In this document: piece by piece, positions 1 to 12,988 of the stretch
Numbering within the stretch: the stretch's first letter is position 1
How the letters are laid out: each line of letters starts with the position of its first letter
Source of the DNA: Mycolicibacter virginiensis
GTDB taxonomy: Bacteria > Actinomycetota > Actinomycetes > Mycobacteriales > Mycobacteriaceae
NCBI RefSeq assembly: GCF_022374935.2
Contig: NZ_CP092430.2
Location: 1,240,001 to 1,304,000 of the forward strand
Length of the DNA: 64,000 nt
Reading direction: 5' to 3'
The notes under the pieces: model-generated
The model's input: only the letters and a program-made list of their open reading frames with translations
What the model was told of the DNA's origin: nothing
Database searches by the model: none
Made by a program: the position numbers and the translations under genes

Positions 1-1000
1 CGCTCAGGCTGGCGGCGATGATGCCGGTCTCGTCGCCCTCGCCGGAGTCGGCTGGGTCGACGCCTACGACGACCTTGACGGGTCCACGCGGTGCAGCCGG
101 TAGCCGCCAGTCGTCAAGCCATTGTCGCCTGATCAGCCCGCCTTCCGGCTCGGAGGGCACGCCGAGATACAGTGCGGCCCAGGCCCGGCCGCCGACGGCG
201 CGCTTGATCTCGGCGAACTGCTCGGCGGTGCGTCCGATGGCCGAGGTCATCGCCACGCCCGGCGGGCGGCCCAGGGCATCGGGCACGCCCGCTGCGCTGA
301 TGGCAGGGACGTTGACGTGCCGCCAGCGGCTACCCGGTTCGGCCAGCAGTTCGCCGGCCAGGTCGAACTCGCTCCACCTGGTCATCACGATCACCGCCGA
401 CCCACCGGGCATTAACCGGGTCATCAGGCTGGAGCGGAACTCGGCCAGCAGCCGCCGCCGGTAGGCGGGCGAGTCGGCCTCAGCCGCGCCCTTGACGGGA
501 TCGTCCACGCACAGCACACCGGCCCCGAAACCGGTTGTTGCGCTCAGGATTCCGCCTGCCAACATGCCACCACGGTGACCGGACACCCGCCAGCGGCCCA
601 CCGCCTGCTTGTCCTCGGCCAGCTCGATGCCCAGCTGGTCGCGGTGCTCGGCGATCAGCCGCCGCGCCTCCCGTGAATGCTCCTCGGCCAGGGCGTCGGC
701 GTAGCTCTTGACGATGATCTCGGTGTCGGGGTTGCGCGACAGCAGCCAGACCGGGAACACCTGACTGACCAGCAGGCTCTTGCCGGTACGCGGTGGACAG
801 CACAGGATGAGCCGCGAGTCCGGCGTCTGTACGGCGCGCACCAGCTCGTCGCTGATCAGCCGGATGGTCGGGGTCACGTGATAGCCGGGGATCAACCGGC
901 GGGCCAGCTCGGCCGGTGAATCGGGGCGCTGTCGCCCCCGTGCGGCCTGGAGGGCGCGGGCGGCGGCCAACGCGGCTACCGGGTTGGCAGCGGTGGTCAC
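1..1000 (-). CDS. Phage terminase large subunit (partial, runs off the left edge)
   Basis: Packaging motor ATPase-nuclease, 333 residues visible. A Walker A motif CCPPRTGKS sits at residues 67-75, a Walker B stretch VLCVDD at 162-167, and the first acidic motif of the RNase H-like nuclease domain (VVVGVDPADSG) at about 311-320, so the nuclease domain continues beyond position 1. The start is a GTG at 1000 whose next base completes the TGA stop of the upstream gene (GTGA overlap), indicating coupled translation. It is the last visible gene of the leftward operon. Family assignment rests on motif order and spacing. Confidence 0.88.
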   Translation of the reverse strand, partial: MTTAANPVAALAAARALQAARGRQRPDSPAELARRLIPGYHVTPTIRLISDELVRAVQTPDSRLILCCPPRTGKSLLVSQVFPVWLLSRNPDTEIIVKSYADALAEEHSREARRLIAEHRDQLGIELAEDKQAVGRWRVSGHRGGMLAGGILSATTGFGAGVLCVDDPVKGAAEADSPAYRRRLLAEFRSSLMTRLMPGGSAVIVMTRWSEFDLAGELLAEPGSRWRHVNVPAISAAGVPDALGRPPGVAMTSAIGRTAEQFAEIKRAVGGRAWAALYLGVPSEPEGGLIRRQWLDDWRLPAAPRGPVKVVVGVDPADSGEGDETGIIAASLS

Positions 1001-1272
1001 GCGACGCTTCGCCGTGCGCTGGAGTCGAAACCGGCGCTCGCGGCGTCCCAGAGGTCCGACCGCCGCCACTGATGGCCGCATCGGTCACAGCAGTATTCGC
1101 AGATCAGCCGCTTACCGCCGTTCCAAATCACGGCGTCCGGCTCGGTCATTGCGGCCAGGCGGGTGCAACGGTCGGCCTGGTCTCCTGGCGGGCAGCACGC
1201 CGGGCAGTAGTCGCCCATCCACGTGTCGTAGAACGGATCGACGTTCGGTGTGGTGCTGGTCGTGCCGCTCAT
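997..1272 (-). CDS. Small cysteine-rich zinc-ribbon protein of the element
   Basis: 91 residues. Two Cys clusters are visible, CPACC near the N-terminus and CEYCCDRCGHQW near the middle, which look like zinc-ribbon knuckles; no catalytic motif is seen. I chose the ATG at 1272 because a GAGGGAG-type ribosome binding site precedes it, while the longer frame upstream reads as low-complexity. Its stop overlaps the terminase start by 4 nt. HNH endonucleases often precede terminases in phages and contain Cys pairs, but no HNH histidine pattern is present here. Function unknown. Confidence 0.65.
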   Translation of the reverse strand: MSGTTSTTPNVDPFYDTWMGDYCPACCPPGDQADRCTRLAAMTEPDAVIWNGGKRLICEYCCDRCGHQWRRSDLWDAASAGFDSSARRSVA

Positions 1273-1364
1273 GGTGTTCTCCCTCGGTGGTTTTCGTTGG
1301 GGCTGGTGTCGTTGGCCGGTACACCGCGCCCCCGAGGCCAAGGGGCGCAGTGAAACCGGCTGCA

Positions 1365-1946
1365 TCAGGCGGGCGCGGCCTGCTTGGCGGTGTCGTGGGC
1401 CAGCGGCGGCACCGAGCGCAGACCGGCGCGCAGGTTGGCCAGCTGTGTGCTGGTGCTCCCACCGCCGTCATCGACCCCCAGCGCCGCCAGAACGTCGGCC
1501 TCGAACACCTCGCCGTCCCGGTGGAGTTGCTGGGCGGTGCGGATGACTGCGTGCCAGCACCGCTCAAGCAAGGGCGTAATCCCGGTGCCCAGATGCGTTC
1601 CACCGGAGGCGATCAGCACCTGGTCGTCCTTGTAGCCGCCACGCGACAGGACGGCATACGTCTCGGCCTGCGTCGGGCGGCGACCGGCACGCCAACGGGC
1701 CACTGCCCACGGCCCGGCGTAAGCGATCTCGGGGTCGCGGCCGTGGGGGCGGTCAGCGAACGTGGTCGTCCCTTGCTGGCCCCACACACGGCTGTCTGAG
1801 GCCACCGCGCTGCGCAGCTGCGCACCGAGCACCACTCCGGCGACGGCATGGGCTGATTCGTGAACACACAGCTCCAAGTGCCCACGCTCGCGGGCGGTCA
1901 GGTCGGCCAGGGTAAGCCGCCGCCGGGGTTGTCCGGTTCCGGTCAT
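1365..1946 (-). CDS. M41-like HExxH metallopeptidase of the element
   Basis: 193 residues. HESAH occurs near residue 29, matching the HExxH zinc site, followed by an AYAGPWAVARW segment and a later GYKDDQ acidic motif that could supply the third zinc ligand as in FtsH-type M41 peptidases. No AAA domain or membrane segment is attached. It overlaps the upstream gene by 4 nt (ATGA) in the same leftward operon that ends in the large terminase. A virion or host-protein processing role is possible; head maturation proteases of tailed phages are normally serine-type, so this is unusual. Confidence 0.6.
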   Translation of the reverse strand: MTGTGQPRRRLTLADLTARERGHLELCVHESAHAVAGVVLGAQLRSAVASDSRVWGQQGTTTFADRPHGRDPEIAYAGPWAVARWRAGRRPTQAETYAVLSRGGYKDDQVLIASGGTHLGTGITPLLERCWHAVIRTAQQLHRDGEVFEADVLAALGVDDGGGSTSTQLANLRAGLRSVPPLAHDTAKQAAPA

Positions 1947-2299
1947 CGGGTGTTCCTCTCGGGGGTTAGTTGGTCGATGGGCTGCGGAGTTGGGTCAGCG
2001 CCGGGAGGGTGCGGCACATAGCTGCGGACCACCCTCCCGGCGTCGGCCTTCGCAATGACAGAAGACTGAATATCGTTGCTGGACAATAGATTCCGTCTAA
2101 TACGTTCCCTGGCCTTGTCCGATCTGGCCTCCCAGCGCGCCTGGCCGGCATCGACGTAGCGGGCAAGGCAGCCGCGGCACCGCCACCCATGGACGCTGCC
2201 CGCGTACTGGAGCACCGGCCCACCGCACTCCCAGCAGCTCGGACCTGCGTAAGTGGCCTCGCAACCGGTCTCGGTCATCATCGTCATCACGGTTGTCAC
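1943..2299 (-). CDS. Small zinc-ribbon protein of the element
   Basis: 118 residues starting at a GTG that overlaps the preceding stop (GTGA). CWECGGP and CRGCL motifs form a plausible four-Cys zinc ribbon in the first third; the rest is charged and Pro-rich towards the C-terminus. It overlaps the metallopeptidase gene downstream by 4 nt. No further family recognised; a nucleic-acid-binding accessory role is an inference from the zinc ribbon and the packaging operon context. Confidence 0.6.
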   Translation of the reverse strand: MTTVMTMMTETGCEATYAGPSCWECGGPVLQYAGSVHGWRCRGCLARYVDAGQARWEARSDKARERIRRNLLSSNDIQSSVIAKADAGRVVRSYVPHPPGADPTPQPIDQLTPERNTR

Positions 2300-3117
2300 G
2301 GCGCAGGCTCCGGCGTGGTGATGGTGACGGCGGCGATTGCCGCCTCGTAGCCGATGACGACGGTGCGTTCGGCAATGGCCACGAACAGGTTGTCCCCGGT
2401 GGCCATCGTGGTTCTGACCTGCGGCTCATCGCGCCAGCCGTAGGGCTGGCTGGTGGCCACGATCATGTTCTCCAGGCCCTCGACGTAGCCGCCGCCGAAT
2501 ATCCACACGTGGCCCAGCGGTGAGGTCCAGCGGGTGCCGGACTTGAGCACCAGGCCGAACTCCTGGCTGGCCCACTGCGCCCCGGCGTGGAAGAACGTCA
2601 GCGTGTTGGTCAGCGCCGCCGCGGCCTCCAGATACCCCACCGCCTGCTTGAAGCTCGCCGCGGTCTGGGGCGTACCCAGGTCGGCGGCATCGAGCTTCAG
2701 GCGTTCGGCGAACTCCCGCTCGGCCATGACCTGCTCCTCCAGGCGGAGGATTTGGGCCGCGTTGGCGATGACCTCGGCCCGCGACGGTGCGGTCAGATCA
2801 CACTCGTCAGCAGCCCACAACACCATCGGCTCAAAGGCGTCCAGGATGTCGGGCCGGTGGCCTTGCTTGAGCTGGCCGGGTGCGGGGTCACCGCACCATG
2901 GCGCATTCCAGACCCCGGCGCTCTGGCCGTTGGGGTAGCTGTTGCCGCGGACTTCCACGCCGTGCAAGTGCCGCGACGGCTGGTCCGCGCCGATCTCGGT
3001 CCAGGCGGTGGAGGTGTACAGCCCGAAGGCGGTTGGATTGACCGGCGGCGCTTCAAAGTGCAGCGGCAACGGGTGGTCGTAGGTCTGGACAGGGAAGTCA
3101 GGCAGGCCGGTGGTCAT
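2296..3117 (-). CDS. Putative virion structural protein of the element
   Basis: 273 residues, no signal peptide or membrane segment. The central part (about residues 85-140) is an acidic helical region containing FEPMVLWAADECD followed by a Glu-rich helix, and the C-terminal part contains a GGGY turn, a run of beta-type residues and the closing IAERTVVIGYEAA strand. This pattern resembles actinophage head-associated proteins as I remember them, but I cannot assign it as a major capsid protein with certainty. It sits between two overlapping genes (ATGA at 3114-3117, GTGA at 2296-2299). Confidence 0.5.
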   Translation of the reverse strand: MTTGLPDFPVQTYDHPLPLHFEAPPVNPTAFGLYTSTAWTEIGADQPSRHLHGVEVRGNSYPNGQSAGVWNAPWCGDPAPGQLKQGHRPDILDAFEPMVLWAADECDLTAPSRAEVIANAAQILRLEEQVMAEREFAERLKLDAADLGTPQTAASFKQAVGYLEAAAALTNTLTFFHAGAQWASQEFGLVLKSGTRWTSPLGHVWIFGGGYVEGLENMIVATSQPYGWRDEPQVRTTMATGDNLFVAIAERTVVIGYEAAIAAVTITTPEPAP

Positions 3118-3824
3118 GGGGTTACTCCCATCTCCGCGAGCACTGCTCGCGGGTCGGTCGGGGTGGTGCTGGTGGTGGGCTCGGGGTGGTCCTGGGCGGT
3201 GTCCAGGCGGCGCTCCAGCTCCAGCGCGGCACGGTCAAGTGTCTGGGCCAGCAGTCGTGCCAGCCGTTCTGATCGGCTGGTCTGGCCGCGCAGTTCGTTG
3301 GCGTTGGGCGGGTACGCCCGGCCCAGCAACGCCGACAGCGGCCCATCGATGTCGTCGGCCAGTGCGGTCAGCACCGCCGCCCAGCTGCCCGCGTCCAGGG
3401 ATTCGCGGCTGATCTCGGGCAGGGCCGGTCGCGGCGCGAGGTCGATCAGCGTTGTCATCGCGTACTTGCGCTTGCCGGGCTCGTTGGCCAGGTGCGCGGT
3501 CTTGGCGTGGGCGTCGGCCTCAGCGATCCACCCCACGATGACGCCGACCAGCTCGTGGGTCGCTTCAGCCAGCCAAGCCACCGGCAACCGGAACCGGGCT
3601 GAACTCGGCGCGGCGGCAACCCGTTCGGCCAGTGGCCGAACCACGTCGGCGATCTCGCGGGCAAGGCTCCAGTCCCCGGCGTAGTGGCCGACGGTCAGTC
3701 CGGTGCGCCGCCGCTCGCGCAGCTCGGTCTGGGAGTACCGCCGCGGTGGACGCTTGGGCGCACCGGGCAGGCTGGCCAGGTGGGCGGGCGTCCCGAACCG
3801 GCGCACGGCGCGCTGCGCGATCAT
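3114..3824 (-). CDS. Conserved-looking element protein, function unknown
   Basis: 236 residues from the ATG at 3824, which overlaps the stop of the upstream 88-aa gene by 4 nt; a longer in-frame extension upstream exists but is Arg/Gly-rich noise. The protein is alpha-helical with a basic N-terminus (PKRPPRRYSQTELRERRRTG), a hydrophobic VGVIVGWIAEA-like helix near residue 95 and a Thr/Pro-rich tail. It is not recognised. Position directly upstream of the putative structural gene suggests a virion or scaffold role, which is inference only. Confidence 0.55.
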   Translation of the reverse strand: MIAQRAVRRFGTPAHLASLPGAPKRPPRRYSQTELRERRRTGLTVGHYAGDWSLAREIADVVRPLAERVAAAPSSARFRLPVAWLAEATHELVGVIVGWIAEADAHAKTAHLANEPGKRKYAMTTLIDLAPRPALPEISRESLDAGSWAAVLTALADDIDGPLSALLGRAYPPNANELRGQTSRSERLARLLAQTLDRAALELERRLDTAQDHPEPTTSTTPTDPRAVLAEMGVTP

Positions 3825-4087
3825 CGGGCCACCGCCTGGTCGTCGGTGGCGGCATCGGCGGCGTACCGGTCGATGAGGTCCAGCAGTTCGTCGGCCTGCT
3901 CGGGGCTGCTGCCCTCGCGGATCAGAAACGCCCTCGTGCGCCACCAGCTCAGCGCCGTCCGCGCCTCCTCCACGCGAGGGCCGTCGGTCTCGCCGCGGCT
4001 GGCCAGCACGCCCAGCCGGGCGCGCCAGGACTCCATGCTGCGGGTGCGGGGGTGGGCGTCGGTGGTGCTGCTGGCAGAGGTGGTCAC
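3821..4087 (-). CDS. Small element protein, first gene of the packaging operon
   Basis: 88 residues starting at a GTG at 4087. It is polar and mostly helical, ending in a Glu/Asp-rich segment (EQADELLDLIDRY). Nothing matches a known family. It opens the leftward run of seven overlapping genes ending in the large terminase, and a 12-base sequence shared with the resolvase upstream region (TACGAAATATGT on the plus strand) lies about 40 bp upstream. Confidence 0.55.
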   Translation of the reverse strand: MTTSASSTTDAHPRTRSMESWRARLGVLASRGETDGPRVEEARTALSWWRTRAFLIREGSSPEQADELLDLIDRYAADAATDDQAVAR

Positions 4088-4122
4088 GACGGCCAGTGTG
4101 CCACTAAGCCATGCAAGTTACA

Positions 4123-4134
4123 TACGAAATATGT
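4123..4134 (-). promoter_or_regulatory. Shared upstream motif, copy 1
   Basis: TACGAAATATGT is found here, upstream of the packaging operon, and again at 5968-5979 upstream of the resolvase operon, in the same orientation relative to the genes. A common promoter element or operator is inferred. Confidence 0.4.
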
Positions 4135-4212
4135 TGCGGCACAATACCTCCCATGTCGGGTAAGTGATTGCGCCGGGCCTACAACGTGGGAATTTGGCGC
4201 GGCAGACGACAA

Positions 4213-4238
4213 ACCCCGGCCCGTAATTGGGCCGGGGT
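4213..4238 (-). terminator. Intrinsic-type hairpin downstream of the nuclease cassette
   Basis: A perfect 10-bp stem (ACCCCGGCCC / GGGCCGGGGT) with a 6-nt loop lies 21 bp past the stop of the GIY-YIG gene. On the minus strand it is followed by TTTGT. It would separate the cassette transcript from the packaging operon. Confidence 0.75.
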
Positions 4239-4258
4239 CAGTCGGTGTGTCGGGCGTG

Positions 4259-4729
4259 TCAGTCAGCGTTGTTGGCGAACGGGCGGACACCGTGCTGGGC
4301 GCGGAACGCCGCAATCATCGCCCTCTCGGCGTTGCGCGCGTCGGCATCTGCGGTGACCCGCCACCCAACGATGAGGTTGCCGTGGTCTGCTAGGTGCCAG
4401 ATGCGCCGCCCGCCAGAATGTCTCGCGCTGCCACCGGCTCCATAGCGGCGGAACTGACGCACGCGGCGGTGCAGACCGTCCTGTTTGGACCCGAGGCTGG
4501 CCATGCCGATATAGACCAGGCGCTCGTGCGGTACCCAAGCGTCCTCCAGCACCGCGACCGGGACGGGCGCATCACCGCGATAGGGAGCGTCTTTGTGGAA
4601 CTCGGGAGGGGCATCGGTGGGCCTCACGACGACATAGACGCCCGCCTCCTTCGGCACATCGGCGCTGGCGAGGCCCTGGAACGTGAACCATCCGGTGAAG
4701 GCTGTCAGGTCGAGGGGATCGGTCATCAT
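4259..4729 (-). CDS. GIY-YIG family nuclease
   Basis: 156 residues. The motif set of the family is present in order: GVY near residue 30 (GIY), YIG near 73, Arg in the RRVRQF helix, Glu in NAERAMIAAF, and Asn in the terminal PFANNAD. Thus the active site appears intact. The protein is a stand-alone domain with no added DNA-binding region, unlike most homing endonucleases. It begins with ATGATG overlapping the stop of the PD-(D/E)XK gene by 4 nt and is followed by a hairpin terminator. Likely cleaves DNA; target unknown. Confidence 0.8.
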   Translation of the reverse strand: MMTDPLDLTAFTGWFTFQGLASADVPKEAGVYVVVRPTDAPPEFHKDAPYRGDAPVPVAVLEDAWVPHERLVYIGMASLGSKQDGLHRRVRQFRRYGAGGSARHSGGRRIWHLADHGNLIVGWRVTADADARNAERAMIAAFRAQHGVRPFANNAD

Positions 4730-5187
4730 GGCAGCTCTCTCGGCTGGCCGCCGAGCAGTCTAGTGATGACGGGTTCCAGCCGGTAGTAATCCATCTCGAC
4801 TTCGCGAAGGGCTTTTACGGGCGCCTCATCTACGTACCAATACAGCTGAGGCGGAGTCTGTTTCGCGTACTTGATTGCTTCTTCGATTGTGAACAGCCAC
4901 ACCGCATCACGCGACATATCGACGCAGGCAAGCCACTGCGCTTTGCAGTCAATCGGAAAGCGCCAGCCCAACGACGGCTTGCCGGTTCCGCCTGCCGGTA
5001 CCGGCTTGAGTTTCGTCTTGACCTGAATCGTGGCGGCCGACTGCTGGCCCGGCACGTACATCACCAGGTCGATGCCTGAGTCGGTGGTGAGTCGGGCGCT
5101 GTCGATGCCCAGCTTGAGCAGTTGGTACTGGACGAGCAGCTCACCGGCTGCGCCGATTGCCTGCGTGCCCAGCTTGATCTCGGTCAT
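4726..5187 (-). CDS. PD-(D/E)XK-type nuclease domain protein
   Basis: 153 residues. The N-terminal half shows the fold's signature: Glu in GAAGELLVQYQL, then SGIDLVMY, then IQVKTK, giving the E...D...QxK catalytic set of Holliday-resolvase-like or restriction-type nucleases. The C-terminal half is aromatic-rich with no recognised domain. It overlaps by 4 nt with both the resolvase upstream and the GIY-YIG gene downstream, so the three are almost certainly co-translated. No methyltransferase partner is adjacent. Confidence 0.75.
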   Translation of the reverse strand: MTEIKLGTQAIGAAGELLVQYQLLKLGIDSARLTTDSGIDLVMYVPGQQSAATIQVKTKLKPVPAGGTGKPSLGWRFPIDCKAQWLACVDMSRDAVWLFTIEEAIKYAKQTPPQLYWYVDEAPVKALREVEMDYYRLEPVITRLLGGQPRELP

Positions 5188-5927
5188 GCCACGGCGTCCT
5201 TTGCAGCTGCGCGGTCGTGGTCAAGTTGTTCGGTCACGGCCACTCCGGCTTTACTGTCGAGCACGCGGCGAACCTGGGCGGGATGCCAAGTCCGGGAGCC
5301 GCTGCCGGTGTGGATGCCGTCGGTCATGAGGTCGGCGGCGATAGCACGGAGCGAGGCACCGTCGTATGCCTCGCGGCAGATGCGCTCGACTACCTCGGCG
5401 GGCAGCTGTGAGGGCTTGCCCAGCTGCACGCCCTGTGCTTTGCGCTCGGCCAGGGCGTCCCTGGTGCGCTGGGCGATCATGTCGCGCTCGAATTGCGCGA
5501 ACACCAACAGCATGTTCATCGCCGCGCGGCCTGCCGGGGTGGCGGTGTCCATCATCATGTCGGCGGTGGTGACCACCCAGCCCTCACGGGTGGCGAGGTG
5601 GTCCAGGTCCAGGGCGTCCTTGATGGACCGGCTGATGCGGTCCAACTTGGCGGCCAACAGGATTGACGCCCGGCGGCCGGCCAGCGCGGCCAGGGCCTCG
5701 CTCATGGCTGGGCGTTTGGACGGCAACGTGGTGCCGCTGACCCCGGCGTCGGTGAACCACTCCACGACGGTGATGCCGCGGGAGGCGGCGTGCTCCTCGA
5801 TGGTGCGCCGCTGGGCATCCAGGCCCAGGCCACTGTCGGCCTGCTCGTTGGTGGACACGCGCAGGTAAGCAACGGCGGTGCCGGTCGGGGCTACAGGGCG
5901 GGTGCGGGTGACACGCTTGGTGGCCAT
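5184..5927 (-). CDS. Serine recombinase of resolvase/invertase type
   Basis: 247 residues with a resolvase catalytic domain: YLRVS with the nucleophile Ser25, a conserved LDRISRS segment around residue 100, and the FAQFERDMIAQRTRDAL helix leading to a short helix-turn-helix-like C-terminus. It lacks the long recombinase/zinc-ribbon regions of the integrase at 11041-12537, so it is probably a resolvase or inversion enzyme. It heads the nuclease cassette with 4-nt overlap. The upstream 55 bp carry an inverted TTCGTAA/TTACGAA pair that may be its binding site. Confidence 0.85.
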   Translation of the reverse strand: MATKRVTRTRPVAPTGTAVAYLRVSTNEQADSGLGLDAQRRTIEEHAASRGITVVEWFTDAGVSGTTLPSKRPAMSEALAALAGRRASILLAAKLDRISRSIKDALDLDHLATREGWVVTTADMMMDTATPAGRAAMNMLLVFAQFERDMIAQRTRDALAERKAQGVQLGKPSQLPAEVVERICREAYDGASLRAIAADLMTDGIHTGSGSRTWHPAQVRRVLDSKAGVAVTEQLDHDRAAAKDAVA

Positions 5928-5942
5928 GCCTACACCTTAACT

Positions 5943-5979
5943 TCGTAATAGTGACGGGCGTCAGTGTTACGAAATATGT
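5943..5979. promoter_or_regulatory. Inverted repeat and shared motif upstream of the resolvase cassette
   Basis: TTCGTAA and TTACGAA face each other about 19 bp apart, and the right arm is part of the 12-mer TACGAAATATGT repeated at 4123-4134. It may be a resolvase site or an operator for the cassette; this is inferred from symmetry and position. Confidence 0.45.
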
Positions 5980-5982
5980 GGG

Positions 5983-6147
5983 CTAGATCTGCCGCAGTGC
6001 GCCGATGAGTGCGGCAAGGCGCGCGTGTTCGGCTGGCGTGGCCTCGATTTCGTCGCGCTCCACGCCGTCGAGCAGCCGGGCCAGGATGTCGGCGGCGTCA
6101 TCGAGCTTGGCCAGCCGGTCCCGGTCGGATTGCTTCACCCCGGCCAT
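5983..6147 (-). CDS. Small element protein (54 aa)
   Basis: A short frame starting MAGVKQSDRDRLAKLDD and ending ALIGALRQI. It is polar, helical and of protein-like composition, and starts 15 nt after the stop of the 164-aa gene, consistent with one operon. A GGAG sits immediately before the ATG, so the GTG three codons later is an alternative start. No family recognised. Confidence 0.5.
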   Translation of the reverse strand: MAGVKQSDRDRLAKLDDAADILARLLDGVERDEIEATPAEHARLAALIGALRQI

Positions 6148-6162
6148 TCTCCAGGTTGCAGG

Positions 6163-6657
6163 TCAGAGCCGCTGAAGACCGCCGCTCGGCGACCAGCCGC
6201 GCAATGGGTCGTACTCGTCACGCCGTCCTGGAGGGATGGGAGTCGGCTCCGGCACGGGCTGAGGCTCCGGCTCGGCATCGGCCATGCCGGCGGCCATGGG
6301 CTCGGTGGCGTCAGCCACCACGGTATCGCTGGCGGCGCTGTGTGCCTCGCTGGCGGCCGAAACGGCGTCCGGTGAGGCATTGGCCGGGCTGACCGGTTCC
6401 CCGGCACGCTGGCGCGCGACGGCCAGCCATTCGGCCAGGGCGTCGGCGGGCACGCCATCGAGAGCGAGCACCTGGCGCGCGATGTCTACCTGGAGCGGCC
6501 ACAGCGGATCGTCCGGCCCGGCCACGGTGCCGAACAGCGCCCGGCACTCAGCCGCGGCGGCGGCCTCCAGGTCGGCCGGGGCCAGCTTGCCGTCGGCCAC
6601 GTCGCGGGCGACCGAGGCGGCAGCCTTGATCGCGTCCTCGGGGGTCATGGTGGTCAT
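6163..6657 (-). CDS. Element protein with acidic Pro-rich tail, unknown function
   Basis: 164 residues. The first 95 are helical (EDAIKAAASVARDV..., then a WPLQVDIARQVLAL helix); the remainder is Ala/Ser/Glu/Pro-rich and probably disordered. It overlaps the HTH gene upstream by 4 nt (ATGA). Not recognised; a scaffold-like or terminase accessory role cannot be told from sequence. Confidence 0.5.
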   Translation of the reverse strand: MTTMTPEDAIKAAASVARDVADGKLAPADLEAAAAAECRALFGTVAGPDDPLWPLQVDIARQVLALDGVPADALAEWLAVARQRAGEPVSPANASPDAVSAASEAHSAASDTVVADATEPMAAGMADAEPEPQPVPEPTPIPPGRRDEYDPLRGWSPSGGLQRL

Positions 6658-7157
6658 CGGGTGATCTCCTCAATCTCGGCGTCGATGATGTTCCCGCCGT
6701 CCAGGGCGGGCGGTGGTTCGCGGTGGGCGACCAGCGCCAGCAGCTCGGTCTCCAGCCGGTCGATGATGGCCGCCGGGTCGGCGGACACCTTCACGTCCAC
6801 CTGCTGGGCCGTCTGGACGTGCAGCCCGTTGAGCCGGGCGTCCTTCTCGATCATGTCGGCTATGGCCTTGGCGGTAGCGACCAGCGCCTGGGAGTCACCG
6901 CGCTGCTTGGCGGCGGCCAGCTCGGCGAACAGAACCGACTTGGTGATCCGCAGCCCCTCGCTGGCTGAGCGGCGCGCGGCCTCCGGCGACTCCGGCGCGG
7001 TGCGCTCCAGGTGTCGGCGCACGGCCACCTGCGCCGAGCCGCGGTTTCGGTATCCGAGGGTCTCGCTGATCTCGGCCCACGTGCGTCCTACCGCACGTAG
7101 CCGGAACGCCTCCTCGGCGCGGGCGCGGGAGTCCTGGCGGTTCATCGTCGGTGCCAT
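6654..7157 (-). CDS. HTH DNA-binding protein, possible small terminase subunit
   Basis: 167 residues from the ATG at 7157 (the frame is open to 7262, but the extra N-terminal residues look untranslated; MNRQDS at 7145 is another option). The N-terminus reads RARAEEAFRLRAVGRTWAEISETLGY, a helix-turn-helix of the type in phage small terminases and satellite regulators, followed by a helical oligomerisation-like region and an acidic tail. TGGCGACA is directly repeated just upstream of the chosen ATG, a possible operator. It sits next to the putative origin, so binding at origin or pac site is plausible. Confidence 0.55.
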   Translation of the reverse strand: MAPTMNRQDSRARAEEAFRLRAVGRTWAEISETLGYRNRGSAQVAVRRHLERTAPESPEAARRSASEGLRITKSVLFAELAAAKQRGDSQALVATAKAIADMIEKDARLNGLHVQTAQQVDVKVSADPAAIIDRLETELLALVAHREPPPALDGGNIIDAEIEEITR

Positions 7158-7277
7158 GTCGCCATTGTGTCGCCACTGCGTGCAGCCGCCGCTACGCCAG
7201 CGCGGGGTCTGTCGCGCAGCCCGTCCCGCAGCCTCGCTCGGCGCGCTCGTTGTCGTTGTCACTGCCCCTTCGGCTCG

Positions 7278-7520
7278 TATTGGCCCCCCTCCTATAGGGA
7301 GGGGCCGATACTCAATAAGGGAAGGCCCCTAATCAGCCCCTCGGACGGGGCCGATAGAAAGCGCTGGTCAGAGGCGGTTTTCTGCACCTATTGGCCCCTA
7401 TCGGCCCCAGTGCGGGGGCCGATACAGAATTGGCTATCAGCCCCTCGAAAAGGGGCCGATAGAAACCGCTGGTCAGAGGCGGTTTTGGGGGTTATCGGCG
7501 TATCGGCCCGCATCGGCCCT
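7278..7520. repeat. Iteron array, candidate replication origin of the element
   Basis: The decamer GGGGCCGATA occurs at 7301, 7347, 7415 and 7452 on the plus strand and in reverse, exactly or with one mismatch, at 7278, 7389, 7399 and 7501. Two long direct repeats (about 50 nt, 7332-7381 and 7436-7486) contain it together with a CGCTGGTCAGAGGCGG block, and several copies form GC-rich hairpins. It lies between the replication protein gene and the HTH gene, the usual place of a Rep-recognised origin in self-replicating satellites. The array is seen directly; the origin role is inference. Confidence 0.7.
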
Positions 7521-9952
7521 CAAACGCGGGGCGCACACGGGCCGATGTCCGCCGCGATGGTGCCGCCGGGGTCGGAGTCATCGCCCGTGTAGTGCGGATC
7601 GCGCGCCTTGGGGTCCAGCCGGTAGAGCTTGGCCCTGCCCTGGTGCCGCCGCGTGACCAGCCCGCGCTTTTCAGCCAGCGCCAGCGCCTCGTCGGTGGTC
7701 TCCTTCTTGCCGCCGACCGCTGCCTTGATCGCGGTGACGTTCATCTCGTCGCGGCCCTCGGTGGCGTTGTCGGCCAGCACGTCGAGCACGGCGGTCAGAC
7801 GCTTCTCGACATTCTCGCTCTGGTGCGTCGTGGCGCGGTTGCCGCCCACGTAGGTCAACCGCCCGGTGGCCTTGTCGAACGACAGCAGCCCTTCGCGCAC
7901 CGGCTCGTCCGCATCGCGCACCTTGTCGGTGGAGAAGTAGCGCGGCTGGAGGGGGTGGTCGTCGTCGCGCACGATCTTCCAGTTGGCGTCGGACCACCCC
8001 AGCAGCGTGGAATCGCCCCTGGCGCGCTCGTTGGCGTGGCCCATGTGGTGATGCACCAGCACGTCGTCCACACCCGCCGTCGTGAGCATCTCGGTCAGCG
8101 GGTACAGCAGCTTGCCCATCTCCCGGTTCTCGTCCAGGCCCATCGCCTCCAGGACCGGCTTGAGGCAGTCAAACACCACGAAGTCGCAGCCGAGGTCGGC
8201 CAGCCGCCGCGCCCACATTTCGCGCAGCCGGTCGTTGCCCAGGTCGAACAGCCCGGCCTGCCCGCGCAGGTTCACCACGTCCACGACCGCCGAGGTGTTG
8301 GTTACGCCCTGGCGGCGCAGCCACCGCTTGAGCATCCCTTGGGTCATCTCGTTGTCGATGATCACGATGCGCGACGCGCGCTGCGTGACCTCGAACGCGC
8401 CCAGGAACGCCTCGCCGTCGGCCAGCGAGCGCACCAGATTGCCGCTCAGGGTGGTCTTGCCGCCGCCCGCCGGAGCCGCGCACAGCACCTTCGCGCCGCC
8501 CGACGGCCACACGCCCTCGATGCGGAACCGCACCGGGTCGTCGTCGGTGTCCAGCAGGTCGGCCAGGCTGGTGACCGGCGGCAGCTCGATCTCGGCGATG
8601 TCGTTGGCTGCGAGGCGTTTCCGCGCCTCGCGGTCGATCCACAGCTGGGACGCGCGGTCGAGGATCTTGCGCTCCGTTGCCTCGTCAGCGGCGGCGGTGC
8701 CCTCCGTGTCGTCTGTCCCGCCGCCCGGCGCGGCATCGGCCTTGCCGAAATCGGCCGGCAATTCGTCGGTCACGGCCAGGGCGTCGCTGTCGGTCAGCTC
8801 GATGCCGAGCGCGTCCATGGCGGCCTCCAGGTTGTTGTCGTAGTGCAGTAGCGCCACCGCCTGGAGCTTGCTGAATGCGTGCTTGCCGGTCGCGGCGATG
8901 CGGCCCGCCCATGGCTCGCCGGGGTTGTCGGTCCAGACGTAGAACGGCGGGTCCGGTGAGTCGGTCCACTTCGCGCAGCCCGGCTCATGCGCGGTGGCCG
9001 ATTTCGGGTTGCCGTGGACGCCGGGCGCGGTCCACGTCGGGCACCCACAGCCGTCGGCCTTGCCGACTGGCATCCACTCGGCAGGCTCCAGGATCGCCGC
9101 CCAGCCCACGCCAGCGCCCCACCGCGCCACCGGGTCGTCGGCGGTGTCGGCGCGGGCCTGGCCGAGTTGCGCCGCATTGGCGTAGGACCGACCGCGCGCG
9201 GTGATCGCCTCGGCCAGCCACCCCGGCAGCGCGTAGACCGGCGCGCCGGTCGCGGTGTAGGTGCCCTCCGGTCGCACGCTGGGCGGCGTCAGCACGTAGT
9301 TGCCCGCGCCCCAGATCACCGAGTAGCCGTCATCGCCGCCGACCTTCATCGACCCCGGTGGTCCCGGCGGCAGCTCGACGCCCTCGGGCACCGCGAAGTA
9401 GAAGTGCCCGCCGTCGCGGTGGACCAGCGTCACGCCGTCCGGCCCCAGCTGGCCCGGCGTGCGCACCGTCGGCACGGTCGCGGGGTCGGCCTGGGCGTCG
9501 GCCAGGAACGCAACGAGCTGCGCGTCGGTGTCGCAATCGACCACGACCAGGCGGCTGCGGCCCAGCGACACCGCGACGTTGACCTCCACCTCGCCGCCGA
9601 ACACCCCGACGTAGCGGTCCAGGTAGGTGTCCAGTACGGCGGTCTCGGTGGTGGCCAGGTGAACTCCGGCGGGCGACTTGAGCGTCTGCGGCCTGGGATG
9701 GCCCGCAGCCCGCGCCGCCTCGCGGAAAGCACGGTCGTCGGCGGTGCGCTTCTGCGGAGTGCGCACGTCGGCGGGCCTCTTGCTGGCCGGGTAGACCAGC
9801 AGCGGCGCGCAGTCCAGGCCCGCAAGCGCGTGCAGAAAGGCCCGCACGTCGTCATGGTCGTCGGCCTTGGGCGCATCGGCCAGCAGTGCGGTCAGGAGGC
9901 GGGCACGGTCGGCCTCAGCGGCGTTGCCGCCCTTGGGGCTACTCTGGGTCAC
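7520..9952 (-). CDS. Primase-polymerase / RecA-fold helicase replication protein
   Basis: 810 residues from the GTG at 9952, preceded by AAAGGAT. The N-terminal part is a bifunctional primase-polymerase domain: the catalytic DCD motif near residues 139-141, GGHFYF near 181-186 and the WGAGNYVLTPPS block near 214-225. A Cys-rich insert (GCGCPTW ... HEPGC) follows at about 301-326. The C-terminal part is an AAA/RepA-type ATPase with Walker A AAPAGGGKTT at about 492-501 and a VIIDNE Walker B-like strand. This fusion is typical of mycobacterial phiRv1-type elements and plasmid/satellite Rep proteins. It ends inside the iteron array. Confidence 0.88.
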   Translation of the reverse strand: MTQSSPKGGNAAEADRARLLTALLADAPKADDHDDVRAFLHALAGLDCAPLLVYPASKRPADVRTPQKRTADDRAFREAARAAGHPRPQTLKSPAGVHLATTETAVLDTYLDRYVGVFGGEVEVNVAVSLGRSRLVVVDCDTDAQLVAFLADAQADPATVPTVRTPGQLGPDGVTLVHRDGGHFYFAVPEGVELPPGPPGSMKVGGDDGYSVIWGAGNYVLTPPSVRPEGTYTATGAPVYALPGWLAEAITARGRSYANAAQLGQARADTADDPVARWGAGVGWAAILEPAEWMPVGKADGCGCPTWTAPGVHGNPKSATAHEPGCAKWTDSPDPPFYVWTDNPGEPWAGRIAATGKHAFSKLQAVALLHYDNNLEAAMDALGIELTDSDALAVTDELPADFGKADAAPGGGTDDTEGTAAADEATERKILDRASQLWIDREARKRLAANDIAEIELPPVTSLADLLDTDDDPVRFRIEGVWPSGGAKVLCAAPAGGGKTTLSGNLVRSLADGEAFLGAFEVTQRASRIVIIDNEMTQGMLKRWLRRQGVTNTSAVVDVVNLRGQAGLFDLGNDRLREMWARRLADLGCDFVVFDCLKPVLEAMGLDENREMGKLLYPLTEMLTTAGVDDVLVHHHMGHANERARGDSTLLGWSDANWKIVRDDDHPLQPRYFSTDKVRDADEPVREGLLSFDKATGRLTYVGGNRATTHQSENVEKRLTAVLDVLADNATEGRDEMNVTAIKAAVGGKKETTDEALALAEKRGLVTRRHQGRAKLYRLDPKARDPHYTGDDSDPGGTIAADIGPCAPRV

Positions 9953-10086
9953 GTTGATCCTTTCATCGGGGTCGGCACGCCGGATCCTTCGTTGGGGTCT
10001 ACACGGTTGGTTGGCAGAGGTGCCGTCCGGCACACGCGAGTCGAGGCCAAAACGCTCGCGCCGGGCGGCATCGCTGTTTTCGGGTG

Positions 10087-10421: not shown

Positions 10422-10730
10422 TCACGCGGCGCCGCCGGTCAGGATGGTGCGGATGCGGGCGGCCTGCTCGTCGGTCAGCTCGGGGGCGGCGTCGACCAGG
10501 GCGCGGATGACGGCGCGGTGATCGTCACGCGGGGCCTGCTCGTTGCGGTTGCGAATCCAGGCGTCGACCTCGGTGGGGTCGAAGTACAGACGCCGGTTGA
10601 CGCGGTGGGCCGGTAGACCTTCGGCATGGACGAACTTGCGGATCGTCTGATCGGACAGGCCGCCCAGGCGCGTACCGACTTCGGCGGTTGTGAGGTAGCC
10701 GCCAGCGGCGGCGATGGTGGGTGCAGTCAT
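10422..10730 (-). CDS. Excisionase-family HTH_17 DNA-binding protein
   Basis: 102 residues with the classic helix-turn-helix pattern YLTTAEVGTRLGGLSDQTIRKFV and the recognition strand RRLYFDPTEVDAWI, typical of excisionase/AlpA-like domains. A helical acidic C-terminus (APELTDEQAARIRTIL) follows. It is the first confident gene left of the integrase and may be the recombination directionality factor or a regulator of the replication operon. Confidence 0.7.
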   Translation of the reverse strand: MTAPTIAAAGGYLTTAEVGTRLGGLSDQTIRKFVHAEGLPAHRVNRRLYFDPTEVDAWIRNRNEQAPRDDHRAVIRALVDAAPELTDEQAARIRTILTGGAA

Positions 10731-10912
10731 CGTGCGGAACTCCGAATACTCGGCTGGTTCCGCACGTATCCCTGAGCCGGGACGCCCTGCGCATCCCTCT
10801 GGTTAACGTGCGTGGACACCGCTTCCGGTGCCCGCGTTGCTGTTGCTACCTCCCCGCTAGGCGCATCGGGCACCGGCGGTTTCGGTGCCCCCGACTCATC
10901 AGGGCCAATCAA
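10727..10912 (-). CDS. Doubtful small ORF upstream of the excisionase gene
   Basis: 61 residues from a TTG, Pro/Ala-rich, no domain. It is listed because its stop overlaps the HTH gene start by 4 nt (ATGA) and a TATATT hexamer (minus strand, about 10932-10938) precedes it, suggesting the operon's promoter lies here. Composition is not convincingly protein-like, so this may be leader RNA instead. Confidence 0.3.
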   Translation of the reverse strand: MIGPDESGAPKPPVPDAPSGEVATATRAPEAVSTHVNQRDAQGVPAQGYVRNQPSIRSSAR

Positions 10913-11040
10913 TGCCGGGGGTCATCGCCAAATATAGCTTGTTAGCGCCCGCGATGGCTAGCGAGGTACACCGGAACCTGTTGTACGACAGACAAACCCG
11001 TCAAAGTCGGGTAACTCATGCGCCCCCGCCGGGGACGGGC
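10913..11040 (-). promoter_or_regulatory. Intergenic region with possible leftward promoter
   Basis: Between the integrase stop and the small ORF. On the minus strand AAGCTATATTTGG contains a TATATT hexamer that could be a -10 box for the excisionase-replication operon; no convincing -35 is seen. Confidence 0.35.
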
Positions 11041-12537
11041 TCAGCGACGCCAGTCGATGCGGATCGTGTTGGGGTCAAACGTCTTCGATCCGCGCGTGCC
11101 GCGCCGGAGTCGTACCTCGCACAGTGCGTCAATCACGCTGCGGCGGGCCATCAACGATGCCGCCATGAATGCCTCGGAGGGGTGGGGCGCGGCGAGCACG
11201 TCATCGAGCGCACCGCCGCCGGGCTGCACCGCCTTGATCTTGCGGTCGACCTCGGCCAGCTGCGCGCCGATCTTCTCCTTCTTGGTGCGCCACCGCCTGG
11301 CGTCGATCAGGTCGTCGTCGTAGTCGGCATCAACCTTGGCCAGGCGCGCCCGTAGAGCGTCCTGCTCAGCCCGCAGGGGCGCGGTGTTGGCCTTCGGTGG
11401 TGCCAGCCGCTTGCGGGCGTCAGGGCGGCGCAGGCGCTCGGCTACTACCGCCGTAACGAACTCGTCCACACCGCGCGCCCGCGGGGCGTCCTGGTCGTCG
11501 TCGGCGGTGATGATCTGCCGGATGCGGTCGTAGTCGACCGGCCCGTGCGCACGGTTGACGCACGCCGCCTTGCACCGGTACCGGCCACCGCTGAAACTGA
11601 CCACCGGCTGGTCGCAGGTGGCGCACAAGAACAGGCCGCTGCCCAGGTGTTTGCGTTCGGTGCCTTGCCGGTTGGTGATCCGCCGGGGGTCAGTGAGGAT
11701 GGCCTGCACAGCGTCGAACACGTCCTCGGACACCAGGGCCTCCCAGGTGCCACGGGTGACCGTCAGCGCCTCGGTCACCTCACCGTTCCGGCGGGCCTTG
11801 CGGGCGTCGGTCTCGGTGGCAAGGCGGTTGTAGATCGACCGGCCGCAATAGCGCGGGTTCGCCAGGATGCCGTAGACGCTCGTCGGGTTCCAGGGCTTGC
11901 CGCTGCGGGCGCTGGTGCCTTCGTTGGTCAGGGTGCGGGCGATGCCGCGCAGCGACTCCCCGGCATGGAACAGCTTGAAGATGCGCCGCACCAACTCGGC
12001 CTCGTCGGGCACGACCTCGCCCCTGGACGTGTAGCCGGTGAGCCGTGTGCCCAGCGGTGGGCGGCCGAGGTTGGCACGCTGCACCGCCGCCGCCTTCTGT
12101 CGTGCGCTCTTGCGTTCGACCTCGCCGCGCGCGAACGCCATGCGCACCCGCACGAAGGTTCGGCCCGCGTCGGTGGTCAGGTCGGCCTCGCCGTTGGCGG
12201 TCACCAGCGCCAGGCCGTTCTTCTCGGCGGCGTCCAGCCAGTCCTCCATCTGCCGGGGCTGGCGGGTGAGGCGGTCCATGTCGTAACAGACCAGGGCGTC
12301 GAATGACCCGGCGTCATACGCCGCCACCAGCGCGTCGTAGCCGGGCCGGTTCTTGCGGGCGTCACTCGCGCTGATGCTGTTGTCCACGAACTCATCGACA
12401 ACCGTCCAGCCGCGCAGGCTCACGATCTGCTGGCACAGCTCGCGTTGACGCTCGACGGCCAGTCCTTCGCCGGTCAGATCACGGGAAATGCGCAGGTAGA
12501 GGGCGGCGCGGCGGGTGGGAGCGGTGGTGGCGTCCAT
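11041..12537 (-). CDS. int: Large serine integrase
   Basis: 498 residues. The N-terminal catalytic domain has YLRIS with nucleophile Ser18 and the VCYDMDRLTRQPRQ segment near 83-96; a recombinase domain follows at about 160-280; a zinc ribbon is formed by Cys305, Cys308, Cys322 and Cys326; and the coiled-coil region around 385-440 is Leu/Arg/Asp-rich. This is the architecture of the phiRv1/Bxb1-type integrases, which insert unidirectionally and need a directionality factor to excise. It is the rightmost gene of the element, reading inward, as expected with the attachment site just upstream of its start. Confidence 0.92.
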   Translation of the reverse strand: MDATTAPTRRAALYLRISRDLTGEGLAVERQRELCQQIVSLRGWTVVDEFVDNSISASDARKNRPGYDALVAAYDAGSFDALVCYDMDRLTRQPRQMEDWLDAAEKNGLALVTANGEADLTTDAGRTFVRVRMAFARGEVERKSARQKAAAVQRANLGRPPLGTRLTGYTSRGEVVPDEAELVRRIFKLFHAGESLRGIARTLTNEGTSARSGKPWNPTSVYGILANPRYCGRSIYNRLATETDARKARRNGEVTEALTVTRGTWEALVSEDVFDAVQAILTDPRRITNRQGTERKHLGSGLFLCATCDQPVVSFSGGRYRCKAACVNRAHGPVDYDRIRQIITADDDQDAPRARGVDEFVTAVVAERLRRPDARKRLAPPKANTAPLRAEQDALRARLAKVDADYDDDLIDARRWRTKKEKIGAQLAEVDRKIKAVQPGGGALDDVLAAPHPSEAFMAASLMARRSVIDALCEVRLRRGTRGSKTFDPNTIRIDWRR

Positions 12538-12706: not shown

Positions 12707-12988
12707 ATGACAACGCTGCCCTTGGCTGAGGTGCGGGCAAATCTGTCCAAGCTGGTCGACGAGGCCGTCCGCACGCATCAGCGCGTCGAAGTCACCCGGC
12801 AGGGACGTCGAGCGGCAGTCCTGCTCAGCGCTGACGATTACGACTCGATCATGGAGACGCTGGACATCCTCAGCGACGCAGCCGCCATGGCCGCGGTGCG
12901 GGAGGCGGAGGCCGACATCGCCGCTGGGCGCCTCTACTCCGCCGACGAGGTTGAGGCAGAACTCCGCGCGAAGGGCATCGTGAAATAG
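12707..12988 (+). CDS. RelB-like antitoxin (Phd/YefM fold)
   Basis: 93 residues. The N-terminus TTLPLAEVRANLSKLVDEA and the VTRQGRRAAVLLSADDY segment match the DNA-binding Phd/YefM fold of mycobacterial RelB antitoxins, and the C-terminal ADIAAGRLYSADEVEAEL is the usual toxin-wrapping tail. Such antitoxins repress their own operon and neutralise a RelE mRNA interferase. Here the partner downstream is broken, so it may be an orphan with residual regulatory role. Confidence 0.85.
   Translation: MTTLPLAEVRANLSKLVDEAVRTHQRVEVTRQGRRAAVLLSADDYDSIMETLDILSDAAAMAAVREAEADIAAGRLYSADEVEAELRAKGIVK

Follow-up and report, generated by a model that had tools for sequence, protein, structure and literature searches.

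A 64,000-nucleotide stretch of the Mycolicibacter virginiensis genome (contig NZ_CP092430.2, positions 1,240,001 to 1,304,000, hereafter the window) contains an element that we read, from its genes, as a phage satellite. Within it, the gene of a small serine recombinase of the resolvase/invertase type is followed by two short genes, whose products are predicted to fold as PD-(D/E)XK and GIY-YIG proteins and keep conserved residues of catalytic type. We found that the recombinase belongs to the core of a mycobacterial satellite family, independent of cargo, and that behind it lies a slot of varying content, beginning near the resolvase stop codon. The safest statement is this architecture, a core resolvase plus swappable cargo. 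The explanation that we favour, with moderate confidence, goes one step further: in this satellite the interchangeable slot would hold the two nuclease-like proteins as an anti-phage or helper-interference module.

The slot was surveyed in sister satellites. Among 64 mapped loci, there are 32 in which the stretch after core gene g6163 reaches g3821 or g3114 (Table 1). Removal of two duplicates (L051, L195) and three rearranged or decayed loci (L209, L226, L210) leaves 27 satellites; the other 32 mapped loci are prophages, contig ends or other gene orders and stand outside the count. Forty fresh regions were taken from 83 matches to the g6654 family, most of them ranking in the upper half by match strength. 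Sister genes were called with a simple custom caller, cargo classes were sorted by hand, and unscanned members were placed by BLAST likeness. In this layout (g6163, slot, g3821 or g3114), the recombinase stands at the slot start in 25 of the 27 satellites, or 25/30 with the three rearranged or decayed loci included. The two satellites with no resolvase at the slot are L140 and L229.

Of the 27 slots, 20 have cargo, which includes nuclease or DNA-methyltransferase genes in 13. The other seven slots of the 27 (L117, L197, L214, L215, L220, L224 and L230) are empty, with no gene above 100 amino acids. One or both of the nucleases seen in the window element are found in five satellites and neither in 22. 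Besides the window element, the five are L003, with the PD-(D/E)XK/GIY-YIG pair and a GHKL-type ATPase, L140, with PD-(D/E)XK and a uracil-DNA-glycosylase (UDG)-family protein, and L192 and L198, with GIY-YIG. Further slots hold a C5-methyltransferase with a GIY-YIG enzyme and a Vsr relative (L193), Eco29kI with a C5-methyltransferase (L201, L221), a C5-methyltransferase with EcoO109I and Vsr (L217), EcoO109I (L189), or an Eco57I-type methyltransferase with a 247-amino-acid protein (L122, L204). The rest contain a PLD nuclease on the opposite strand (L229), a PIN domain with metal efflux (L127), metal efflux with a general methyltransferase-fold protein (L194, L196), P450 with TetR (L206, L213), or proteins of unassigned function (L180, L219).

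Two of these cargoes deserve a separate mention. The 247-amino-acid protein behind the Eco57I-type methyltransferase (L122 8061-8804, L204 6710-7453) is 99% identical between its copies and is perhaps a restriction enzyme; the L122 copy had no Pfam match and the L204 copy no PADLOC match. Metabolic cargo, with cytochrome P450, TetR and SnoaL-like genes, lies at 10373-11614 in L206 and 6441-7433 in L213.

Different cargo is found behind near-identical resolvases, with 96.5% identity between L193 and L196 and 96.0% between L003 and L127. Eco57I-type cargo that is 94-99% identical, on the other hand, is found behind resolvases only 80% identical (L122 and L204). In 15 pairs of satellites, chosen by hand, DNA similarity stops between -24 and +3 nucleotides from the resolvase stop in 11 and resumes within 170 nucleotides before g3821 in eight. 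The end of similarity at the stop codon may be partly due to the end of coding constraint. An earlier note on this DNA had taken the three genes as one system. The survey, together with cargo swaps behind recombinases of 96% identity, led us to reject a three-gene functional unit as the principal explanation.

The nuclease pair also occurs apart from the recombinase. It is present, with the same 4-nucleotide overlap, on plasmids of M. arabiense and M. vanbaalenii, and no serine recombinase match was found within 3.5 kb of either plasmid-borne pair. Tyrosine recombinase genes lie about 2.4 kb upstream of the pair in the M. vanbaalenii plasmid, on the other strand. In the M. arabiense plasmid, methylase genes (dcm and Eco57I-type) lie next to the pair, and the gene after it encodes an “ATP-binding protein” with a weak likeness to the L003 ATPase (phmmer match at E up to 1e-3, none at 1e-5).

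We then consider 22 fetched PD-(D/E)XK loci, a set that leaves out 6 of 10 plasmid records and the weak or partial matches of a draw from the genus. The GIY-YIG gene is next in eight of them, a resolvase is directly before in six and a UDG-family gene adjoins in three. As the earlier note had proposed to check, the three neighbours do recur together: recombinase, PD-(D/E)XK and GIY-YIG are on one strand in 4/22 loci (the window, L051, L003 and L005), with one further gene among the three in L003 and L005, and also in a fifth locus (L023), where the recombinase is shortened. L005, which is outside the 27 and has its contig end there, carries a resolvase, PD-(D/E)XK, a UDG-family protein and GIY-YIG. 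Besides the ATPase of L003, a PLD-domain protein is found as partner in L078.

GIY-YIG is present without PD-(D/E)XK in the surrounding DNA in 44 of 48 named-genome loci, where some contigs end close by. A family-wide draw has GIY-YIG in 22/351 genomes and PD-(D/E)XK in 4/351, the genus draw, which covered PD-(D/E)XK only, has it in 23/396 genomes, and the protein database holds 631 relatives of PD-(D/E)XK and 76 of GIY-YIG; how frequent each nuclease is depends on the sample. In other actinobacterial elements (L029 9962-10453; L086, where GIY-YIG comes after c2), GIY-YIG is found directly behind a tyrosine-integrase-like gene, with a 4-nucleotide overlap.

In terms of the proteins themselves, the recombinase matches the Pfam families PF00239 (Resolvase, 1e-36) and PF07508 (Recombinase, 9e-7). 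The motifs YLRVST at 21 and KLDRISRS at 94 are intact, as in the catalytic domain of small serine resolvases and invertases, and its sequence relatives in the PDB include TP901-1 integrase and gamma-delta resolvase. For the two nuclease-like proteins, Pfam gave no match above the cut-off (the best being Mrr_cat_2, E 0.086), PADLOC gave none at E 0.1, and PHROGs gave families of unknown function only (best 1.1e-5, for the PD-(D/E)XK protein). Sequence profiles of both found nothing in the PDB at E 0.1, and the viral fold library had no match below 0.001 for the GIY-YIG model. Among phage records, at E 1e-5, the PD-(D/E)XK protein had no match and the GIY-YIG protein one, at 33%.

The assignment to the two folds comes from AlphaFold models, with a mean predicted local distance difference test score (pLDDT) of 92.0 for the PD-(D/E)XK and 88.4 for the GIY-YIG protein. 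By structure comparison, the former is closest to I-Ssp6803I and Hjc, the latter to the UvrC GIY-YIG domain, with R.Eco29kI lower. Residues E16, D36, D40, Q55 and K57 are invariant in 59 aligned rows of the PD-(D/E)XK protein (58 of 631 homologues plus the window), and Y32, Y73, G75, R89, H104, E135 and N153 in 56 rows of the GIY-YIG protein (55 of 76 homologues plus the window). The first protein thus combines the superfamily fold with acidic and lysine active-site residues, and the second has the G-x-Y/Y-I-G motif, the conserved Arg and Glu and the fold. Third-position G+C is 0.747 for PD-(D/E)XK and 0.790 for GIY-YIG. As a sign of recent arrival this is weak; the core genes g1943 (0.748) and g997 (0.797) are equally low.

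Much of what the earlier note had described holds. The three open reading frames are present on the minus strand between replication-side and packaging-side genes, both junctions overlap by exactly 4 nucleotides (ATGA in each case), a terminator-like hairpin and an upstream motif exist, the two nuclease folds with intact motifs are supported by the models, structure comparison and invariant residues, and the satellite setting agrees with the gene content. What does not hold is the meaning given to some of these features. The overlaps are no sign of special coupling, with 7/8 measured overlapping junctions in the element equal to 4 nucleotides. Likewise, the palindrome is not a feature of the whole block, but goes with the recombinase.

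This 32-bp palindrome, a candidate binding or crossover site, was equalled in 0/60 shuffles of the upstream 200 nucleotides, and a second place for it was not found within the window. Other resolvase types have palindromes of their own, with positions that by eye recur within a type, so that palindromes track the recombinase type and not the nucleases. Only 8 of 25 elements have an upstream palindrome matched by no more than 3/60 shuffles, and support for the site therefore comes partly from conservation judged by eye. Further, the 12-mer ACATATTTCGTA has exactly two exact copies in the 64 kb (with up to 1 mismatch allowed, 0.01 matches would be expected), and may be a shared operator or a candidate recombination site. 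A hairpin similar to that downstream of the GIY-YIG gene was read by eye after the recombinase of L117, where the slot is empty.

As for the possible function, the neighbours of the cargo and the folds point to DNA cleavage aimed at other mobile DNA. The nuclease pair would be transcribed from the resolvase promoter, with translation coupled through the ATGA overlaps, and would cut the DNA of rival or helper phages, presumably like the restriction-modification cargo of the sisters. The resolvase would have no direct part in this; most likely it resolves satellite multimers at the palindromic sites upstream of its own gene. Anti-phage action or helper interference, as the earlier note suggested, is the leading option for the nuclease pair, and is not supported as a property of a three-gene module.

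Pfam found no DNA methyltransferase among the element proteins scanned, which are all but the 54-amino-acid open reading frame and a 112-amino-acid gene beyond TerL, and so no adjoining cognate methyltransferase as expected of type II restriction-modification. Self-protection would then come by other means, such as recognition of modified DNA (type IV-like), absence of targets or expression only upon induction. A more specific version, which we hold as a tentative possibility, is that the two nucleases form a new interference module that lacks a methyltransferase and recognises the modified DNA of helper phages, with the UDG-like protein, the GHKL-type ATPase and the PLD protein as alternative partners, and that satellites exchange such modules behind the resolvase. 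Cluster B-type phages would be obvious candidates for such a target, as the pentamer protein that the element encodes is related to their own capsid pentamer; Mycobacterium phage Rosebush also belongs to cluster B. What makes recognition of modified DNA attractive is that a 7-deazaguanine mycobacteriophage is known and UDG-family partners recur. One report gives dPreQ0 at about 28% of Gs for Rosebush and none for phage Orion (PMC6884629).

A second reading, which we consider rather improbable, is that the two proteins are free-standing homing endonucleases, which cut sister satellites or helpers that have no copy, so that repair copies the cassette with its flanks. The likeness of the PD-(D/E)XK model to the homing endonuclease I-Ssp6803I speaks for this and weighs against a defence role, and in phages, GIY-YIG enzymes have been linked to homing (PMC10448857). 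Also, between the window element and its sibling L051 there are 0 differences in positions 4057-6186 (2,128 bases, with all three genes), as compared to 161 differing positions in 900-7200. Gene conversion would leave such a tract, which is compatible with homing and no proof of it; any homologous recombination can yield a transferred tract. The same slot, moreover, swaps restriction-modification, metal-efflux and P450 cargo, and the pair is found at other places on plasmids.

It is unlikely that the block is one recombination-linked mobile cassette, moved or excised by the recombinase with assistance from the nucleases. The recombinase lies directly upstream of PD-(D/E)XK in 6/22 loci, the 12-mer flanks the block on both sides and the cargo borders begin at about the recombinase stop, all as such a cassette would have it. 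But the recombinase persists with other cargo or with none (7/27 slots), the palindromes lie upstream of it and track its type, the 32-bp palindrome lacks a second place in the window, and in an annotated M. abscessus prophage the resolvase stands behind replication genes without this cargo. Equally unlikely is a role in DNA processing, in which one protein, a junction resolvase like Hjc, and the other, a nicking enzyme like UvrC, would trim replication or packaging intermediates, as neither protein is in the slot of 22/27 sisters of the same layout and both are also on plasmids.

The preferred reading, a satellite with exchangeable anti-phage cargo, has partial parallels among known systems. 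Mycobacterium candidates for satellites resembling phage-inducible chromosomal islands (PICI), the phiRv1/phiRv2 group, were defined by integrase and major capsid protein; like the window element, they are integrated in mycobacteria and combine an integrase with phage capsid genes, and some of them also have genes for replication (PMC10654092, main text). There, “resolvase”, “restriction” and “pentamer” occur 0 times, so that no resolvase-linked restriction cargo is described under those words. I-Ssp6803I (PDB 2ost), a PD-(D/E)XK homing endonuclease, has 17-19% identity in Foldseek to the window protein, whose neighbours are satellite genes. Archaeal Holliday junction resolvases of the Hjc type differ in that the window PD-(D/E)XK protein is not a conserved core gene of its element. 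R.Eco29kI with its C5-methyltransferase is likewise a GIY-YIG restriction enzyme, with homologues in the same slot (L201, L221); the window GIY-YIG protein has no methyltransferase partner and no detectable sequence relation to it, and a comparison gave no support for sequence kinship with the Eco29kI-type enzymes of the sister slots.

Two further systems place GIY-YIG nucleases in phage conflict. The type IV enzyme CMoRE also acts against modified phage DNA without a methyltransferase, and works as one component, with a sensing domain at its C-terminus and a GIYxY-YIG motif of three tyrosines (PMC12923530). The window protein differs, with 156 amino acids, a partner, and GVYVV at 30-34 in place of the three-tyrosine motif. 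GIY-YIG-class nucleases (T5orf172) also appear in the conflict of phage ICP1 and its satellite PLE, where Odn is a phage weapon against the satellite (PMC10448857); here the genes reside in the satellite instead. Neither a resolvase-linked cargo slot in mycobacterial satellites nor this nuclease pair was found in the literature searched, which left subscription journals mostly, and bioRxiv wholly, outside.

The element as a whole (Table 1) spans genes from about -517 to 12537 in window coordinates, in a host genome that is a single contig of 4.98 Mb; its named protein relatives are from Mycobacterium and allies. Integrase, primase-helicase, TerL (terminase large subunit) and a pentamer relative form a PICI-like gene set, for which helper induction and packaging are predicted. 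Pfam gave a Terminase_6N match of 2.7e-8 for the L117 homologue of TerL. The pentamer relative matches 501 phage records, the best being the “major capsid pentamer protein” of phage Indlovu (69.0% identity over 91%); such a satellite-borne protein might direct helper capsid assembly. No tail genes were found among the element proteins scanned with Pfam and PHROGs, though no name-based tail-gene search was made, and a direct repeat marking the element ends was not found, 11-mers being the longest shared words.

The g6654 family is present in 75/396 genomes of the genus, with full prophages among its carriers besides satellites. In the M. abscessus prophage, a RepA-like initiator is followed by the DNA-binding protein and the serine recombinase, an order that would group the resolvase with the replication genes. 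The sibling L051 (from IMG/VR) is about 93% identical to the window element over 7.2 kb; at 683-2646 it has a tyrosine integrase relative and the c17 HTH-like gene, in exchange for the serine integrase within 10422-12537 of the window, an integrase swap. Next to this integrase lies a Phd/YefM-type antitoxin gene (12707-12988, plus strand). A second satellite layout was seen in L199, L203, L209, L211 and L226, with the terminase close behind the replication genes, then an inverted resolvase.

Table 1. Features of the satellite element and of the DNA around its cargo slot, in window coordinates.
Feature	Position	Strand	Basis or remark
TerL, N-terminal part	1..1000	-	continues outside the window to about -517; profile built from sisters
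Core gene g997	997..1365	-	sister-element comparison
Core gene g1365	1365..1946	-	sister-element comparison
Core gene g1943	1943..2299	-	sister-element comparison
Major capsid pentamer protein relative, 273 aa (amino acids)	2296..3117	-	phage-record match
Core gene g3114	3114..3824	-	sister-element comparison
Core gene g3821, first gene past the slot	3821..4087	-	slot survey
12-mer ACATATTTCGTA, copy 2, upstream of next operon	4123..4134	-	exact match
Terminator-like hairpin with short T run, downstream of GIY-YIG gene	4207..4244	-	16-nucleotide arms, 88% complementary
Predicted GIY-YIG-fold protein, 156 aa, cargo gene 2	4259..4729	-	
Predicted PD-(D/E)XK-fold protein, 153 aa, cargo gene 1	4726..5187	-	
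Small serine recombinase (resolvase/invertase type), 247 aa, core gene	5184..5927	-	Pfam, slot survey
32-bp palindrome, candidate binding or crossover site	5942..5973	-	15-46 nucleotides before recombinase; 15-nucleotide arms, 87% complementary
12-mer ACATATTTCGTA, copy 1, upstream of recombinase operon	5968..5979	-	exact match
54-aa open reading frame between g6163 and recombinase	5983..6147	-	own gene calling; similar-sized frames in several sisters
Core gene g6163, 164 aa, replication side	6163..6657	-	phrog_27872, 1.1e-33; precedes slot in sisters
Core gene g6654, 163 aa, DNA-binding protein relative	6654..7145	-	relatives in M. abscessus prophages annotated DNA binding protein
Primase-polymerase/helicase (AAA_25 + Prim-Pol)	7520..10033	-	domain scan
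HTH_17 protein, putatively excisionase-like from its position	10422..10730	-	domain scan
Large serine integrase, 498 aa	11041..12537	-	domain scan

These results show that coupled overlaps in a block of genes can lead to its being taken for one system when the first gene belongs to the backbone. They also single out an uncharacterised two-nuclease pair that is directly testable. Lastly, the 3' end of the resolvase gene emerges as a precise site where satellites of mycobacteria take up and swap cargo, restriction-modification genes included. Phages of these bacteria are being tried as therapy, and the slot is a place to look for new defence genes in mycobacteria.
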